From: Clostridiales bacterium PH28_bin88
GTDB taxonomy: Bacteria > Bacillota > PH28-bin88
DNA: 64,000 nucleotides
Reading direction: 5' to 3'
NCBI GenBank assembly: GCA_000987045.1
Contig: LAKY01000067.1
Location: forward strand, 1-64,000
The notes beneath the pieces were generated by a model, which saw only the letters and a list, made by a program, of their open reading frames with translations, was not told the origin of the DNA and searched no databases. Position 1 is the stretch's first letter, and each line of letters starts with the position of its first letter. Of the stretch, positions 7,814 to 63,533 are shown piece after piece. Both the position numbers and the translations under genes were made by a program.

Positions 7814-8575
7814 GTGTCCGGACACTCTAAATGGGCGAACATTAAACACCGCAAGGCCAAGATGGATGAGAAGAGGGGAAAGCTTTTTACTAAGCTTGGG
7901 CGGGAATTGGTTATCGCGGTCAAGCAGGGTGGCGGTGACCCTGAAGCCAATCCACGGCTGAAGGTAGCCATTCAAAAAGCGCGGGAAGCGAATATGCCCA
8001 TGGAAAACATCAATCGTAACATTCAAAAAGCCACCGGGGAACTGGGCGGTGTTGACTTCGAAGAGACTGTTTATGAGGGCTACGGTCCAGGTGGGGTGGC
8101 GGTACTGCTCAATATCACCACAGATAACCGCAACCGTACCGCCGGTGAAATCCGTTACCTCTTTTCCAGGAACGGGGGAAACCTGGGGGAAAGCGGGTGC
8201 GTAGCCTGGATGTTTGACCCCAAAGGAGTAATTACCCTTGACACGTCTAGCGGCCAAATGGACTCCGAGGAGGTAATGCTGCAGGCAATTGAAGCGGGAG
8301 CGGAAGACGTCAGCGTGGATGATGGTGTCCTGGAGGTGATAACGGCGCCTGAGGATTTAGAGCGAGTTAAGCAGGGTTTGTCAGGAGCAGGACTAAAATT
8401 TGAACAGGCGGAGATGACCATGGTGCCGAAGAATACCGTAACCGTGGAGGATGAGGGGCAGGCGCGACAGGTCCTTCGCCTGATGGAATTGCTGGAAGAC
8501 CACGACGACGTCCAGGCGGTATTCGCCAACTTTGATATACCCGAAGAGATTATGTCCAAAATAGAATCGGTTTAA
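7814..8575 (+). CDS. yebC: YebC/PmpR-family protein
   Basis: A 253-residue full-length YebC family protein, with the typical start SGHSKWANIKHRK, the GAGAEDV-like central region and the C-terminal dimer fold. Such proteins were described as transcriptional regulators and more recently linked to translation of difficult peptide stretches. The GTG at 7814 has AGGAGGG eight bases upstream; the frame extends back to 7661, but that part runs through a terminator. In this lineage it commonly precedes ruvCAB, as here. Confidence 0.95.
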   Translation: MSGHSKWANIKHRKAKMDEKRGKLFTKLGRELVIAVKQGGGDPEANPRLKVAIQKAREANMPMENINRNIQKATGELGGVDFEETVYEGYGPGGVAVLLNITTDNRNRTAGEIRYLFSRNGGNLGESGCVAWMFDPKGVITLDTSSGQMDSEEVMLQAIEAGAEDVSVDDGVLEVITAPEDLERVKQGLSGAGLKFEQAEMTMVPKNTVTVEDEGQARQVLRLMELLEDHDDVQAVFANFDIPEEIMSKIESV

Positions 8576-8583
8576 GGAGCCCG

Positions 8584-8620
8584 GAAGCCGCCCCTACAGG
8601 GGCGGCTTCACTGGTATATT
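8584..8620 (+). terminator. Terminator after yebC
   Basis: An 11-bp perfect stem GAAGCCGCCCC/GGGGCGGCTTC with loop TACA. The T-run (ATTTTT) comes about ten bases later, so efficiency is uncertain. Confidence 0.6.
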
Positions 8621-8674
8621 TTTGCCAACATTCGTCAAAGCTAGGGTAACGGTCAATTGGAGGAGGGAAACGGC

Positions 8675-9253
8675 TTGTTTTGGTCAAGGTACCGTCACAT
8701 CCTCATTACCCTGGTTTTGGCTTCCGCGTTTAGCGGTATCCTGGCTTTCTTGGTGAGTTCGGAATGGCAACAGATTCCGGCAAACCGCTATTTAACAGGG
8801 GAAGTAGGATCGGCGAACAGGGAAACGGGAGAAAGGGTGGTGCAGTATTACAGGTTTCAGAACCGGTACAGCTTGTGCGGGCATACTGTTCCGGTTGAAA
8901 ACCCCGGAGTGGATTTGGAAGGGCTTAGGCTGGAGGATATCCGGAAACGGTACCCGGGAGAGGCCGGGTGGGTGGTGGACACTTCTCCTGGAGGAGAGGT
9001 TACTATTACCAGAAAAGTGGACGGACTTTGCCCGGAGGACGCCGGCCAACGCCACCTGGGCGTTTTGGGGGAATATGTGGCGGTATACGTAGGGCCGGTG
9101 GGTATCAACGGGGGTCTTGACAGGGTAACTCCTATCAAGGTTTCCGATCTTCCCAAGGAGTGGCAGAAGCTGATCCGGGGTGGTGGGTTGGGGTTCACCA
9201 GCGAGGCGGAACTCCTCGAGGCGCTTGATAGTTTCGACGAATACCAGGAATAA
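8675..9253 (+). CDS. BofC-like protein
   Basis: A 192-residue protein with an N-terminal membrane anchor or signal (about residues 8-28) and an extracytoplasmic domain containing CGHTVPVE and GLCPEDAGQRHLGV, features of the BofC C-terminal domain. BofC acts in the space between mother cell and forespore to delay SpoIVB, the protease that triggers sigma-K activation. The TTG at 8675 is chosen because GGAGGAGGG ends seven bases before it; the TTG at 8657 overlaps that site. The yebC-bofC-ruvC order fits other spore-forming Clostridia. Confidence 0.72.
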   Translation: MFWSRYRHILITLVLASAFSGILAFLVSSEWQQIPANRYLTGEVGSANRETGERVVQYYRFQNRYSLCGHTVPVENPGVDLEGLRLEDIRKRYPGEAGWVVDTSPGGEVTITRKVDGLCPEDAGQRHLGVLGEYVAVYVGPVGINGGLDRVTPIKVSDLPKEWQKLIRGGGLGFTSEAELLEALDSFDEYQE

Positions 9254-9425
9254 ATATTAATTCCCTGCCTCCGGTTTCTCCGGGGGCATCTCTATATTAT
9301 AAGAGTGAACCAAATACTCCGGCGCAGGAATACGCCTCTTTCCCGTCGAATACTTGAAGTCATGGACAATACGTCTTTCCACCGGAACATTCGCTGGCGG
9401 TTGGCCAGAAAGGGAGCGGGTTACC

Positions 9426-57688: not shown

Positions 57689-59617
57689 TTACAGGTTGCT
57701 TGCCTTTTTTAGCGAACTCTGATCCAGCAGGGAAGGGAACAGGCTCAAATCTGTGTGGGGCAGGAACATGGCGGATACAAACTCGTCCATAAAGGTTGTA
57801 CCTACCGACAGTTCCAGGTAGGTCATCATCCGGCCCAGTTCTTCGACCTTCAGCCAGGCTGGTTTGGACAGCAGGGCTGCTTCCGCTCCTTTTAGAGAAC
57901 TGTTACCGATAAACTCGTACTTTTCCGGGGGAAGATCCGGCAGCAACCCGATGGCCACAGAATCGTGGATGTTCAGGTAGTTGCCGAAACCGCCGGCGAT
58001 GAGGACCTTGCTGATATCAGGCATCTCCATGCTTACCATATGCAGCAGGCTGCGGATACCGGCAAAGATGGCTCCCTTGGCCCGCAACAGGTTTTGCACA
58101 TCGCTTTCAGAAATGGTGATATCCTTGTTGACACCAGATTCTGAAGCCCAGGCCAGTACGAACTCCATGTCGCCATCTACCGATCTGAGGCGAGGGGTGG
58201 GAAGGTCGTGCTGGAACTTGCCCGCCCGGTCGATCACGCCTGCTGTCTGAAGTTGGGCGAGACAATCGATCAGCCCGGAGCCGCAAATTCCCACCGGCTT
58301 TCCACCGCCGATTACGCTTAAGCGTACGTCGTGGGTGCCGGGGTCAATTTCTACCCTCTCGATTGCCCCGTCCATGGCCCGCATGCCGCACGCGATACCC
58401 CCTCCTTCAAAGGCAGGCCCGGCAGAGCAAGCGCAGGTCACCATCCACTCCCGGTTGCCCAGCACCATTTCGCCATTGGTACCGATGTCAATGAACAGCA
58501 CCGGTTCTTCCGACTCGGCGACCCGGCTAACCAGTACGCCGGACACGATGTCCCCGCCCACATAGCTGGCTACCGACGGGAAGTTGAGCACCGGGGCAGC
58601 CGGCAGAACGTTCAGCCCCAACTCTCCTGCGCTGGAGGTCGGCACCCGGGTAAAGGTGGGGATGTAGGGTTCCAGGCGAATATATCTGGGGGTCGAACCC
58701 ATCAACAGGTGGGTCATGGTGGTATTGCCGGCGCTAACCACTAGGTAGACCCGGGTATGATGGATGTTGTTTCTTTGCAGCAGGGTTGCGATCAGGTCGT
58801 TAATGGTCGACACCACCGCCTCCTGCAGTTGCCGCAAGCCGTTATTTTCTTCGGTGGAATGGATCATCCGGCTGATGACGTCATCGCCGTAGCGGGACTG
58901 GCGGTTGTAAGTACCGGCCTGATCCACAACGCGTCCGGATTCCAGGTCCACCAGAGCCACGACCACTGTGGTGGTACCGACGTCAATGGCCAGGCCGTAA
59001 GGGGGTATCCGGTCGTGCCCAGGGAGTACCTGCAATACCTGGGGTTCGTCGTTATAGTCGGCCAGTACGGCCGTCACCTGCCAATCGCTCTGGCGGAGAT
59101 GCTCCGCCAGGTTCCGTATCACGGGCCAATCAATGCGGAAATGCTGGTGCCCGGTTATTTTGCGCAGTTCGCCTTCCAGCCGGGTCAGGTCGCTGGCGTT
59201 TTCGGTAACGCTCGGGGGTTCGAGGGTGAGCAATAGCTTTTTAACCAGTGGCTGAAAGGCATTGCCCGCCAGCAGGTCGACCTGTTTTTCCGCCAGCAGG
59301 CCTTTGTTTCCCGTCAGAACCCGGTGTTCCCGCAAGCGGGTATCGGCTGTGGTTTCTACCACCACATCTCCTGCCACGTGAGTCATACAGGCCAGTACCT
59401 GGCCTGATTTCCGCAACCTGGGGGGAAGGTTGCCTTTAGCCTCGTCCTGTACTTTACCTTCTTTTACCTTTACGGCACAGCGCCCGCAGGTCCCTTTACC
59501 GCCGCAGGTGCTGGCCAGGTCGATACCGGCCAGGTTGGCTGCCTTAAGCAGGGAAGTGCCATGGTCTACCTCTATGGACACATTATCCGGTTGAAAAGTT
59601 ACCTGGTGCTTATCCAC
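57689..59617 (-). CDS. RACo-like ferredoxin-ASKHA protein (DUF4445)
   Basis: A 642-residue protein: an N-terminal plant-type [2Fe-2S] domain (Cys38, Cys44, Cys47, Cys77; STCGGKGTCGRC), a linker, and a large ASKHA-fold ATPase domain (YGLAIDVGTTTVVVALVDL, SAGNTTMTHLL, FIDIGTNGEMVLG, LIAGGFGNYL). This is the plan of RACo, which reduces the cobalt of corrinoid proteins at ATP cost. No corrinoid protein or its methyltransferase is in the window, so its client is unknown; it may reactivate a cofactor of the upstream enzymes. The GTG at 59617 is preferred; the frame extends to 59686 without a ribosome site. Confidence 0.85.
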   Translation of the reverse strand: MDKHQVTFQPDNVSIEVDHGTSLLKAANLAGIDLASTCGGKGTCGRCAVKVKEGKVQDEAKGNLPPRLRKSGQVLACMTHVAGDVVVETTADTRLREHRVLTGNKGLLAEKQVDLLAGNAFQPLVKKLLLTLEPPSVTENASDLTRLEGELRKITGHQHFRIDWPVIRNLAEHLRQSDWQVTAVLADYNDEPQVLQVLPGHDRIPPYGLAIDVGTTTVVVALVDLESGRVVDQAGTYNRQSRYGDDVISRMIHSTEENNGLRQLQEAVVSTINDLIATLLQRNNIHHTRVYLVVSAGNTTMTHLLMGSTPRYIRLEPYIPTFTRVPTSSAGELGLNVLPAAPVLNFPSVASYVGGDIVSGVLVSRVAESEEPVLFIDIGTNGEMVLGNREWMVTCACSAGPAFEGGGIACGMRAMDGAIERVEIDPGTHDVRLSVIGGGKPVGICGSGLIDCLAQLQTAGVIDRAGKFQHDLPTPRLRSVDGDMEFVLAWASESGVNKDITISESDVQNLLRAKGAIFAGIRSLLHMVSMEMPDISKVLIAGGFGNYLNIHDSVAIGLLPDLPPEKYEFIGNSSLKGAEAALLSKPAWLKVEELGRMMTYLELSVGTTFMDEFVSAMFLPHTDLSLFPSLLDQSSLKKASNL

Positions 59618-59738
59618 ACTATCGCCTACTTTCGCGCATAATATGTAGGGCGAAACGCGGCCCGGGCCATTCCTGGTCCAGGCCAATCAGCACGATTCGC
59701 AACAAGTCTTGATTTCTGGGCAGGCCATTACACCACTT

Positions 59739-61019
59739 CTATTGGCTTTCTGCCAGGTAGCGTTCCGCCTGTACCGCGGCTACCGCGCCGTCACCGGCGG
59801 CGGTCACTACCTGCCTGACGGTCTTGTTGCGGACATCACCGGCGGCGAACACACCAGGCAGGCTGGTTTTCATGTTATCGTCAGCCATGATGTATCCCTG
59901 GGGCGTGATCTCCATCTGACCTTGCAAGATGGTAGTCTCCGGCTGGGTACCGATGTAGACGAAGACGCCGTCGGCGGGTACAAAACGGTGTTCGCCGGTT
60001 TTCAGGTCTTTGACGGTGAGTCCGGTCAGGTGGCCTTCCCCGTTAACCTCTACCACGTGGCATCCCCAGACAAAGTCGATTTTCTCATTGTCAAAAGCCT
60101 CATCCTGGGCGGTTTTGGAGGCCTGCAGGTGATCGAACTCGTGTACAATAGTTACCTTGGATGCAAAACGGGTCAGGTAAACCGCTTCTTCTACCGCCGA
60201 GTTACCGCCGCCTACCACGATCAGGTTCTTACCTTCGTACATCGCCCCGTCGCAGGTGGCGCAGTAGTGCACACCACGGCCGCGCCACTCGGCTTCGCCT
60301 GCCGCAGGCAGTTTCCGCGGCTGGGCGCCGGTGGCCACAATCACAGCACGGGCGTGGTAAATGGTGTCTTCGGTGGTCACTACTTTGGTAGAGCCGGTCA
60401 GGTCTACCTCCAGGACCTCCTTGAAATCTTCCACCTTTACCCCGAAAGAGACGGCCTGCTTCAACATGCCTTCCATCAGGTCCTTGCCTCTTACTACCCC
60501 GTCGGTACCGGGATAATTCGCGATGTGATAGGTATTGGCCGCCTGGCCGCCGGGTAGCCCCTCATCCAGGAGGATTACGTTCAGTTTAGCTCTGCCGGTA
60601 TAAATCGCCGCAGTCAGCCCCGCCGGGCCGCCGCCCAGGATCAATACGTCACAATTCACCACGGGTTTTTCCGCGGGTAGCTGGTCGGCGCCTACCACGT
60701 CTTCAATAGCCTTGCGCAGTTCCGGCTTTTTAATGTACCCGGAGAGTCGTGAACCAACTTCCCGGCCGTCTTTAAAAAACATTACCGTGGGGCTGGACTT
60801 GACCCCATAGCGTTCAGCCAGCGCCCTGTTGGCCTGGCGCAGGATTTTTACGAAACGCAAGCGGTTCCCGTACCTCTCCGCCAGGCGCTCAAACATCGGT
60901 GCCAGGGCGGCGCAGGGGGCGCAGTCTTCTGAAAAATAATCCAGCACGACCGGCAGGTCGCTGTTAAGGACGTCCTGTTCAAAGCGTTCTGCGTTGGTGT
61001 ACAGGATATTGTCGCTCAT
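59739..61019 (-). CDS. Thioredoxin-thioredoxin reductase fusion
   Basis: A 426-residue fusion. Residues 1-105 are a thioredoxin domain with active site CAPC (Cys33, Cys36). Residues ~118-426 are a thioredoxin reductase with the FAD site LILGGGPAGLTAA, the redox pair CATC (Cys253, Cys256) and AAGDVRNKTVRQVVTAAGDGA. The nucleotide loop GGGNSAVEEA is kept, but the NADPH-phosphate motif HRRxxxR is replaced by HEFDHLQ (from His293). The electron donor may be NADH, F420 or ferredoxin rather than NADPH. It overlaps the radical SAM gene by four bases, so it is coupled to it. Confidence 0.9.
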   Translation of the reverse strand: MSDNILYTNAERFEQDVLNSDLPVVLDYFSEDCAPCAALAPMFERLAERYGNRLRFVKILRQANRALAERYGVKSSPTVMFFKDGREVGSRLSGYIKKPELRKAIEDVVGADQLPAEKPVVNCDVLILGGGPAGLTAAIYTGRAKLNVILLDEGLPGGQAANTYHIANYPGTDGVVRGKDLMEGMLKQAVSFGVKVEDFKEVLEVDLTGSTKVVTTEDTIYHARAVIVATGAQPRKLPAAGEAEWRGRGVHYCATCDGAMYEGKNLIVVGGGNSAVEEAVYLTRFASKVTIVHEFDHLQASKTAQDEAFDNEKIDFVWGCHVVEVNGEGHLTGLTVKDLKTGEHRFVPADGVFVYIGTQPETTILQGQMEITPQGYIMADDNMKTSLPGVFAAGDVRNKTVRQVVTAAGDGAVAAVQAERYLAESQ

Positions 61020-62392
61020 GCCGGTATCCTCCCATCAGCCATTTTTACAATCTCTTCCCAATAGTATTCGAGGCCCAAGCTCAAGAGTTCTTTAATGGGG
61101 CGGCAGTCGGGAGATAACACCGAACCATTACGCTCATTGGCTACCACGCCGCATCCACCGCCGCACACCAGGCTAACGTCACAATCACGACACTCGGGAA
61201 TGGTGTTAACGTTCCTGTCGATCCAGGGTTGCAATACCTGGCGGTCATACTTCAGTTCCGGGACAAAGTTGCCAAACTGGTAGCCTTCCCTTCCACAGGA
61301 GGCCGTACAGCCGAATATGTGGCCGTTCAGGTCGTACACCCACTCCTTCTTACCGGCGGGGCAGGTGTCAAAACTGGGGTCTGGTAATTCGCCGGTCAGG
61401 GCCAGGTGCCGGATACCCTTGAATTCTGGCTGGTGAAATTTCTTCAGTACAGGGTTGGTGCGGGAAACCTCCACGAAGGAGCGCCATAACTCCACTTGCG
61501 AGAAGAGGTCTTCCGGACTTTCCGAGCACTGGAACAATTCGTAATTACGCCCGAGCTGGGTCTTGAATCTCGCGGCGCCAAGATCAAGCCATCCCCGGTG
61601 GTCCAATTCCTCGGCCAGGGGTACCAGAGAAGGCAGGTTTTCTTTGTCTACCACCACGCGAAAGTTGATGGGAAACCCCTTTTGCACAGATAGTTCTATT
61701 CCGCGCATGATGGACTCGTAGGTACCCCGGCCGGCCCTGGTGGGGCGCCTGGTGTCGTGGACAGCCTGCGGGCCGTCCACTGTCACCTGCACCTCTTTGA
61801 TGCGGGCCATGGCCAGGGTCTCCACATAGTCGGACAGGTGGTACCCGTTGGTGACCACCGCCAGCTCATATCCCAGTTCCCTGCTGCGGCGGCAGATATA
61901 GTCGATGGCTTCCCGTTGCTGTGGTGAATTAATCAGGGGTTCACCGCCGAACAGGGTAATGAAGGGAGGAATTTCTTCCTCCCGGAAGGTTTCCTGCATG
62001 TGCCCGAAGAAGGCGTCCAGGTACGCCCTGGAAATCACCTGGTGTCCCTCCTGGATGCCTTGCTGGAAACAGTACCGGCATGCCAGGTTGCAGTTGTATG
62101 TTGGTATTAAAAATACCTGGGTGGGGGAATGCCTTAAGGAGTCCTGAAATTCACTTTCCTTCACGGCGAGGAGCAGGTCTTCCTGCATCCGGTCCCGGTA
62201 TACATAGCCCCGGTTTTCCAAGTAGGTGACCAGGGAAGCATCCACCTGACCGGTATTACCATCGCCAAGAGAAGAAAGTTGGTCCACCTCGTCTTTTGTG
62301 GCCAGGTCAAAGGAACCGCTGAGGAAATTCATCAAGGCGTATTCCCCGGGTTCGGGTGATTTGAGGATCAGGTTGTATCTGCTAGGGTACAT
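61016..62392 (-). CDS. Radical SAM/SPASM peptide-maturase-like enzyme
   Basis: A 458-residue radical SAM enzyme. Residues ~1-90 form an N-terminal domain of the kind that binds peptide leaders in RiPP maturases. The cluster motif CNLACRYC has Cys101, Cys105 and Cys108. FGGEPL follows at ~148. The C-terminal SPASM region carries Cys344, 362, 366, 401, 404, 410, 414 and 430, enough for two auxiliary 4Fe-4S clusters. Related enzymes (anSME, SCIFF maturase, QhpD) modify cysteine-containing peptides. ATG 62392 has GGAGGAGG upstream. The 43-residue Cys-rich peptide gene lies 82 bases before it and is the probable substrate. Confidence 0.88.
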   Translation of the reverse strand: MYPSRYNLILKSPEPGEYALMNFLSGSFDLATKDEVDQLSSLGDGNTGQVDASLVTYLENRGYVYRDRMQEDLLLAVKESEFQDSLRHSPTQVFLIPTYNCNLACRYCFQQGIQEGHQVISRAYLDAFFGHMQETFREEEIPPFITLFGGEPLINSPQQREAIDYICRRSRELGYELAVVTNGYHLSDYVETLAMARIKEVQVTVDGPQAVHDTRRPTRAGRGTYESIMRGIELSVQKGFPINFRVVVDKENLPSLVPLAEELDHRGWLDLGAARFKTQLGRNYELFQCSESPEDLFSQVELWRSFVEVSRTNPVLKKFHQPEFKGIRHLALTGELPDPSFDTCPAGKKEWVYDLNGHIFGCTASCGREGYQFGNFVPELKYDRQVLQPWIDRNVNTIPECRDCDVSLVCGGGCGVVANERNGSVLSPDCRPIKELLSLGLEYYWEEIVKMADGRIPA

Positions 62393-62474
62393 GATCAGGT
62401 TTTCCTCCTCCGGTTGGGCAGGATTAAGGACACGGAAAACACGTCGCGCCTTGAGTCCATCCTAAATAGGTTGC

Positions 62475-62606
62475 CTAGTCATGACATCCGGCTACGACTT
62501 TGGAAGACTTGGAGCAGCACTGGGCGACGGGAACCGTCCGTACCGCCTGGCAACAGGAGTTGGTCTCAACGCCTGCTGAAAGCTTCCCCTTGGTGATAGC
62601 TTTCAT
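62475..62606 (-). CDS. Cys-rich 43-residue peptide, candidate RiPP precursor
   Basis: A short frame between the methyltransferase and the radical SAM gene, same strand. ATG 62606 has GGAAGGGGGTG six bases upstream. The first ~14 residues (MKAITKGKLSAGVE) are basic to neutral and could be a leader. The rest holds five cysteines: CC at 18-19, CC at 30-31 and C at 41, in a Ser/Lys/Val context, ending CHD. It has no signal peptide or membrane helix. Size, position and composition are those of radical SAM-modified peptides. It does not match the six-cysteine SCIFF pattern as I know it. Confidence 0.72.
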   Translation of the reverse strand: MKAITKGKLSAGVETNSCCQAVRTVPVAQCCSKSSKVVAGCHD

Positions 62607-62637
62607 TATTAACACCCCCTTCCACCAGGTTAAACAA

Positions 62638-63270
62638 TCAATCCTTGCGCCCAAGTATGGTGATGCTGGCTACCGGGTAGCCATACTTCAGGTACTCATG
62701 GCGGGACAGGAATTCCACCCGGCGGAAGCCGGCCCCGGAGATGGCATCCAGGTACTGGTCTTCCGGAATGGCCCCGCCGTAGCAAAGGGACCAGGCGACG
62801 GGGTCGCTGGTGACCTCGTCAGGCAGGGCCTCTTTGGCGATGACATCCGAGACCACGAAGCGGCCCCCGGGTTTTAACACCCGGTGGATTTCACTGTAAA
62901 CCCGACCTTTATCTTGGGCATGATTGATCACGCAGTTGGAAATGACCACATCCACTGAGGAACTGGCGAAGGGGAGGTCTTCAATTTCCCCCAGGCGAAA
63001 TTCAGCGTTGCTCACTCCTTGTTCACGCCGGTTTGCTTCAGCCTGTTCTACCATAGCCGGTGTCATGTCGACCCCGTAGGCAAAACCCGTAGGTCCTACC
63101 AGCCTGGCCGCGTTTAAGACCTCTAGCCCCTGCCCGGAGCCAAGGTCCAACAGGACTTCGCCCGGTTGAAGGCCGGCGTGAGGCAGGTTGTTCCCGCAGC
63201 TCAGGCAGGCTGTGGCGTTAGGAGCTTCTTTTCCGTAACGCTCCTGGATCTTAACCTGAATCTGGCTCAT
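62638..63270 (-). CDS. ArsM-like SAM-dependent methyltransferase
   Basis: A 210-residue class I methyltransferase resembling As(III) S-adenosylmethionine methyltransferase (ArsM). Motif I is DLGSGQG (42-48); GVDMTPAMVEQA, GEIEDLPF, ISNCVINHAQDK and RVLKPGGRFVVSDVI match the family. Of the arsenic-binding cysteines, Cys163 (SLCYGGA) and an N-terminal pair (Cys22, Cys25) are plausible equivalents; the C-terminal cysteine of long ArsM forms is absent. It may methylate arsenite or a cysteine in the neighbouring peptide. ATG 63270 has GGTGGG upstream. First gene of the operon. Confidence 0.85.
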   Translation of the reverse strand: MSQIQVKIQERYGKEAPNATACLSCGNNLPHAGLQPGEVLLDLGSGQGLEVLNAARLVGPTGFAYGVDMTPAMVEQAEANRREQGVSNAEFRLGEIEDLPFASSSVDVVISNCVINHAQDKGRVYSEIHRVLKPGGRFVVSDVIAKEALPDEVTSDPVAWSLCYGGAIPEDQYLDAISGAGFRRVEFLSRHEYLKYGYPVASITILGRKD

Positions 63271-63374: not shown

Positions 63375-63533
63375 TTACTGGTTTTTCAGCTTTTGTAGGA
63401 TTGCCTCAAGGGTTTGGCAATCCTCACAACCTTGATCTACTCCTCCCTGTTGGCACTTGTCAACGCAAGTTTCAACAGCCTTCCGCAGTACGATCATTTC
63501 ATCCGGTGTCAGTGAAATACTGGTATTGGGCAC
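63375..63533 (-). CDS. Small four-cysteine protein upstream of the methyltransferase
   Basis: A 52-residue frame starting at GTG 63533 with AAGGAAG about ten bases upstream. It reads VPNTSISLTPDEMIVLRKAV and then CVDKC and CEDC, ending in a Leu/Lys-rich helix. Two Cys pairs within 17 residues suggest a metal site or a disulfide hairpin. It is on the same strand as the ArsM-like operon and ends 39 bases before its -35 box. I do not recognise the family. A hairpin (AGGATTGCC/GGCAATCCT) lies inside the coding sequence. Confidence 0.6.
   Translation of the reverse strand: MPNTSISLTPDEMIVLRKAVETCVDKCQQGGVDQGCEDCQTLEAILQKLKNQ

Follow-up and report, generated by a model that had tools for sequence, protein, structure and literature searches.

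A 43-residue cysteine-rich peptide, encoded on the minus strand at positions 62475 to 62606 of contig LAKY01000067.1 from Clostridiales bacterium PH28_bin88, is the product of a real gene and a member of a peptide family, apparently not described before, that is paired with a radical S-adenosylmethionine (SAM) enzyme of the SPASM type. The DNA analysed, referred to below as the window, comprises the 64,000 nucleotides from position 1 to 64,000 of this contig. The cassette that holds the peptide gene is a precursor/maturase pair of a ribosomally synthesised and post-translationally modified peptide (RiPP), ranthipeptide/SCIFF-like in architecture and separate from the SCIFF, CefA/CefB and TIGR04463 systems. 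The genes and sites concerned are as follows.

59739..61019, minus strand: thioredoxin-thioredoxin reductase fusion, with a CAPC thioredoxin site and a CATC reductase site
61016..62392, minus strand: radical SAM/SPASM peptide maturase of 458 residues, with a predicted RRE-like domain and radical SAM and SPASM motifs
62475..62606, minus strand: precursor peptide of 43 residues, starting M-K-A-I-T and ending CCSKSSKVVAGCHD
62607..62620, minus strand: ribosome-binding site region of the peptide gene
62638..63270, minus strand: ArsM-like SAM-dependent methyltransferase, starting MSQIQ; longest open reading frame (ORF) to 63336

The initial annotation of this DNA had described a cysteine-rich minus-strand frame of this length in a 245-base spacer flanked by a methyltransferase gene on one side and a radical SAM/SPASM gene on the other. 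Its coordinates, strand and translation (MKAITKGKLSAGVETNSCCQAVRTVPVAQCCSKSSKVVAGCHD) proved exact, and the spacer was found as described, at 62393-62637. The ribosome-binding site that it had placed before the frame is present as AAGGGGGTG, directly 5' of the peptide ATG, and homologues mostly carry GGAGGTGA. The cysteines of the window peptide stand at positions 18, 19, 30, 31 and 41, which gives the CC-x10-CC-x9-C arrangement originally read from the frame. Comparison across the family has refined this pattern, as the conserved part is the C-terminal motif AQCCSKxSxxxxGCH[DN]; the first CC pair is not fixed in place, and six cysteines, not five, are present in three loci.

The interpretation of the frame as a RiPP precursor had been made to depend on a homologous frame beside orthologous radical SAM genes and on non-random codon changes; this check was run and passed, and the interpretation is upheld by both. 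A first search returned five orthologous radical SAM loci at 49-56% identity, and in every one a homologous peptide is encoded between the methyltransferase and radical SAM genes. The sample was then 398 genomes of one phylum (Bacillota), in which a profile of the radical SAM enzyme detected 19 strong orthologs and one distant relative. A homologous peptide frame was present just upstream of the orthologous radical SAM gene in 21 loci, all 19 of these genomes included. A profile built from the peptide alone gave strong matches (E < 1e-13) in 19 genomes, which were exactly the genomes with a radical SAM ortholog, and the four remaining matches, all with E > 8e-4, were such as chance alone would give. 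Within the sample, the cassette genomes belong to 13 genera from 12 families, and the peptide/radical SAM pair was absent from two further genomes of the family to which the window genome belongs.

Purifying selection acts on the peptide frame. In a gapless block of 16 codons at the 3' end, compared over 17 distinct sequences, all 16 third codon positions vary and only 4 of the 16 second positions do, and over all pairs there are 938 synonymous codon differences vs 378 non-synonymous ones. Nine of 15 residues are invariant in the frame, as against 0 and 1 in the other two frames, which contain stops. That the spacer holds a fortuitous or non-coding ORF might be argued from its shortness, from the lack of a family-model match and from the downstream spacer of the window, which has no unusual fold (z -0.1). 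This alternative is ruled out by the codon-position pattern and the co-occurrence with the radical SAM gene in 19/19 genomes, and in view of the conserved frame and the ribosome sites as well, its probability is negligible. The peptide is almost certainly the precursor of the adjacent radical SAM enzyme.

Family members are 34-43 residues long, carry five cysteines (six in the three loci mentioned) and share the consensus M[KR]x[IVL]T...(C)C...AQCCSKxSxxxxGCH[DN], at which the protein ends. The CC-x9-C spacing is invariant across the family, whereas the first cysteine pair shifts between loci and is replaced by two single cysteines in L044-L046; in one locus Ala replaces the second Ser of the C-terminal motif. 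The initial annotation knew of no named precursor family with this pattern, and indeed no Pfam or NCBIfam model covers the peptide. When the NCBIfam peptide models were run against 16 family peptides, with E values up to 10 allowed, no SCIFF match was obtained. The sole NCBIfam signal was a non-significant one to the ArsD-related vicinal-cysteine protein VcpD in 4/16 peptides (best E 0.13); set beside the ArsD metallochaperone, the peptide here is a radical SAM-paired one of 34-43 residues. No description of the family was found in the open literature, subscription journals lying outside the search.

The features of an RRE-dependent radical SAM RiPP system were found in both partners. A short, conserved, co-occurring precursor lies directly upstream of the maturase in 19/19 genomes, and the maturase combines the radical SAM motif and SPASM cysteines with an N-terminal RRE fold, the last taken from a predicted model. 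In the window enzyme the CxxxCxxC motif is formed by C101, C105 and C108 and the seven SPASM cysteines are C344, C362, C401, C404, C410, C414 and C430, and all of these are invariant among 14 orthologs. In its AlphaFold2 model (mean predicted local distance difference test score 90.9), the N-terminus, from about residue 4 to 87, has three strands and three helices (beta3-alpha3), which is the RRE topology, and we infer from the model that this domain is RRE-like. The best solved match to the model is CteB (PDB 5WGG), the ranthipeptide synthase that acts on SCIFF, over residues 4-448 (Z 26.6, 394 aligned residues, root-mean-square deviation 3.6). In CteB the N-terminal domain is itself an RRE, to which the leader binds as a strand (PMC8326336).

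The window enzyme scores below every NCBIfam equivalog cut-off. CefB (NF038107; 135.9 bits against a cut-off of 600) and TIGR04463 (125.7 against 525) are the best-scoring models, over the full length, and 14/14 orthologs match them as relatives; PapB (110 against 340) and the SCIFF maturase (TIGR03974; 78.4 against 425) follow. Membership of the CefA/B and TIGR04463 families was rejected, as their cut-offs are widely missed, and in contrast to the cysteine-every-fifth arrangement of CefA/CefB, the cysteines of the window peptide do not recur at every fifth residue and no peptide model matches. The likeness to SCIFF and the ranthipeptides, with CteB, is one of architecture, as here too a short cysteine-rich precursor lies just upstream of an RRE-radical SAM-SPASM enzyme in Clostridia-type bacteria. 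Unlike SCIFF, which has six cysteines in forty-five residues, the present family has five or six cysteines, the fixed CC-x9-C spacing and a CH[DN] end, and its cassette includes ArsM-like and thioredoxin-thioredoxin reductase partners. Membership of SCIFF was rejected on the score of the maturase, the lack of a SCIFF peptide match and the presence of a separate SCIFF maturase above the cut-off in 19/19 cassette genomes. Since all 19 genomes carry that separate maturase, the enzyme and peptide described here constitute a system parallel to SCIFF. One genome (G119) has two SCIFF maturases above the cut-off. By similarity to the CteB fold only, the product may belong to the ranthipeptide chemical class.

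A search of plasmids gave no match at E 1e-60, and viral contigs yielded only distant radical SAM relatives (<=34% identity, over part of the length); on these two grounds carriage by a mobile element was rejected.

What is known here is the ranthipeptide/SCIFF-type architecture, and what is new is a radical SAM RiPP family in an unusual conserved setting with an ArsM-like enzyme and a thioredoxin reductase. It adds a radical SAM peptide family that is named in none of the libraries searched and occurs in 12 families of one phylum. In no other case met in this work does a RiPP maturase share a fixed cassette with both an ArsM-like methyltransferase and a thioredoxin-thioredoxin reductase fusion, and with this pairing it can be tested directly whether arsenic or thiol chemistry makes use of ribosomal peptides as dedicated ligands.

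The methyltransferase occurs in 20/20 clustered cassette loci (those of the 19 genomes and L007), and in 18 of them its gene immediately precedes that of the peptide. Among solved structures, ArsM enzymes are its closest relatives (5evj, 5.6e-29; 4kw7, 1.1e-25), and C47, C135 and C185 of the 232-residue ORF align with C72, C174 and C224 of CmArsM, which are the arsenite-binding cysteines of that enzyme (PMC3877260). These three are conserved in the cassette copies; in L033, where the start is called beyond the first cysteine, that residue falls outside the called protein. The enzyme is thus a clear relative of ArsM (CmArsM, NF008823) with all three arsenic-binding cysteines, but unlike CmArsM it is about 210 residues long and is without the C-terminal part. 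The thioredoxin-thioredoxin reductase fusion overlaps the stop of the radical SAM gene by 4 bases and is found in 19/20 loci. This natural fusion, a conserved cassette member, carries an atypical CAPC/CPPC thioredoxin motif. The thioredoxin/thioredoxin reductase/NADPH system is a known reductant for AS3MT, an ortholog of ArsM (PMC12608789).

In the explanation that we consider best, the adjacent radical SAM/SPASM enzyme would bind the conserved N-terminus M[KR]x[IVL]T through its RRE-like domain and would modify the fixed C-terminal core CCSKxSxxxxGCH[DN]; both binding and modification are suggested by homology. The modification would consist of one or more cysteine thioether cross-links of the ranthipeptide kind, this chemistry being the likeliest in view of CteB, the solved structure nearest to the enzyme, and by that analogy a thioether-type change to the core is fairly probable. 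With less assurance, the product would be expected to stay intracellular, because no exporter or peptidase is conserved among the neighbours of the cassette loci. The remaining thiols could then bind or carry a soft metalloid, for instance As(III), which the ArsM-like enzyme would methylate while the thioredoxin-thioredoxin reductase fusion re-reduced its cysteines. Use as a soft-metalloid thiol ligand is the likeliest one, since all three metalloid-binding cysteines are retained in the ArsM-like enzyme and a dedicated reductant accompanies it; these cysteines and the thioredoxin system suggest the metal- or metalloid-binding role that the initial annotation had raised, although we regard a thiol role towards a metalloid or soft metal as somewhat doubtful. 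The explanation as a whole, from RiPP precursor to metalloid ligand, is put forward tentatively, as one that could nearly as well be right as wrong. A variant, in which vicinal thiols of the modified peptide hold the metalloid during methylation by the ArsM-like enzyme to give an organometalloid peptide, an arsenic- or metalloid-containing RiPP with a physiological role other than detoxification, seems distinctly improbable.

Pairs of an ArsM-type methyltransferase and a radical SAM enzyme occur in the ArsM-ArsS arsenosugar and ArsL-ArsM arsinothricin pathways. Unlike those enzymes, the radical SAM protein here is a SPASM peptide maturase accompanied by a precursor peptide. In support of the metalloid explanation, ACR3 was enriched in cassette genomes, at 14/16 vs 109/233 others (p 0.0015, from counts that ignore relatedness). 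Several observations weigh against a part in arsenic chemistry. The cassette methyltransferases fall everywhere below the 263-bit cut-off of ArsM NF008823 (about 180-227 bits; 226 in the window), and 4/19 genomes have, apart from the cassette enzyme, a canonical ArsM that exceeds this cut-off, so that in those four the cassette enzyme is not the arsenic detoxifier. The canonical ArsM lies about 1 kb from ACR3 in G123 and about 4 kb from it in G111. The permease beside the window cassette is no more than a distant ACR3 relative. In no case was the cassette itself located in an ars operon, and in six genomes in which it shares a contig with ACR3 the two lie 230-2467 kb apart, so in these it is not part of such an operon. 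A plain arsenic-resistance operon was rejected on this linkage.

The same evidence on linkage, cut-off and separate ArsM makes a thiol-redox or cofactor role a serious rival. The cassette might yield a redox cofactor or thiol carrier made from the peptide, comparable to PQQ or mycofactocin, that serves thiol-redox or Fe-S/metal trafficking together with DUF5714 and the thioredoxin fusion and involves no arsenic. The near-constant presence of the fusion and the position of the cassette outside ars operons agree with this, as do thioredoxins, a CcdA-like protein and ferredoxins close to several cassette copies. DUF5714, a relative of the protein that NCBIfam names 'metal-binding double selenoprotein MbdU', lies near the cassette in about 12 loci (the window genome has its copy on another contig) and co-occurs strongly with it, in 14/16 cassette genomes vs 18/233 others (p 2e-12, relatedness again being ignored in the counts), which counts in favour of the metalloid explanation as well; its predicted fold (model confidence 75) had no PDB match at E <= 0.001. 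A cofactor of this kind would, however, leave the three conserved ArsM cysteines unexplained, and no dedicated user enzyme was found, so that on balance we hold this role to be unlikely. The peptide could also be envisaged as a housekeeping, ranthipeptide-like signal, cross-linked by the radical SAM enzyme for sensing or regulation and tailored by the methyltransferase. CteB is the nearest fold to the enzyme, the conserved Ser, Lys, His and Asp of the core could accept cross-links, and SCIFF-derived ranthipeptides are reported to act in clostridial quorum sensing (Chen et al. 2020, as cited in PMC8326336). A signal would, however, sit poorly with the lack of a conserved exporter or peptidase beside the cassette and with the SCIFF maturase already present in every cassette genome, and tailoring of a peptide would not require the three arsenic-binding cysteines of the methyltransferase. 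We judge a signalling role to be similarly unlikely.

Beyond the cassette core, two further genes of the window were considered.

63375..63533, minus strand: 52-residue CX3C...CX2C protein (CX3C...GCxDC), an optional conserved cassette partner
63719 onward (C10:63719-64726), plus strand: permease, a distant ACR3 relative (64.7 bits vs a cut-off of 282.8)

The 52-residue protein has no Pfam or NCBIfam match. Nine loci, namely L033, L041-L047 and that of the window, have it close to the cassette, on one side or the other. The permease is also related to PanS and diverges from the cassette, and the true ACR3 of the window genome sits elsewhere, on C90. An AcsV-like corrinoid activation protein (57689-59686, minus strand; 700 bits vs a cut-off of 800) follows the thioredoxin-thioredoxin reductase fusion in the window and was not seen in other cassettes.

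A strong hairpin (z -3 to -6) lies between the peptide and the radical SAM gene in about 11 of the 21 loci (L031, L032, L033, L036-L039, L042, L043, L007 and L004), where it possibly acts as a leaky terminator that sets an excess of precursor. Given the z value of the window spacer quoted above, it is not part of the window anatomy.

The distant relative detected by the radical SAM profile is a sister enzyme at locus L049 (genome G122, about 8001-9311, minus strand; 291 bits to A2). Just upstream of it lies a different small cysteine-containing peptide, MEQITKETWLQKETTSGRIGVTCGMICSPYCVKSTPS, which has the M-x-x-I-T-K start in common, and the locus is without a methyltransferase. This pair represents a possible second, related RiPP family.
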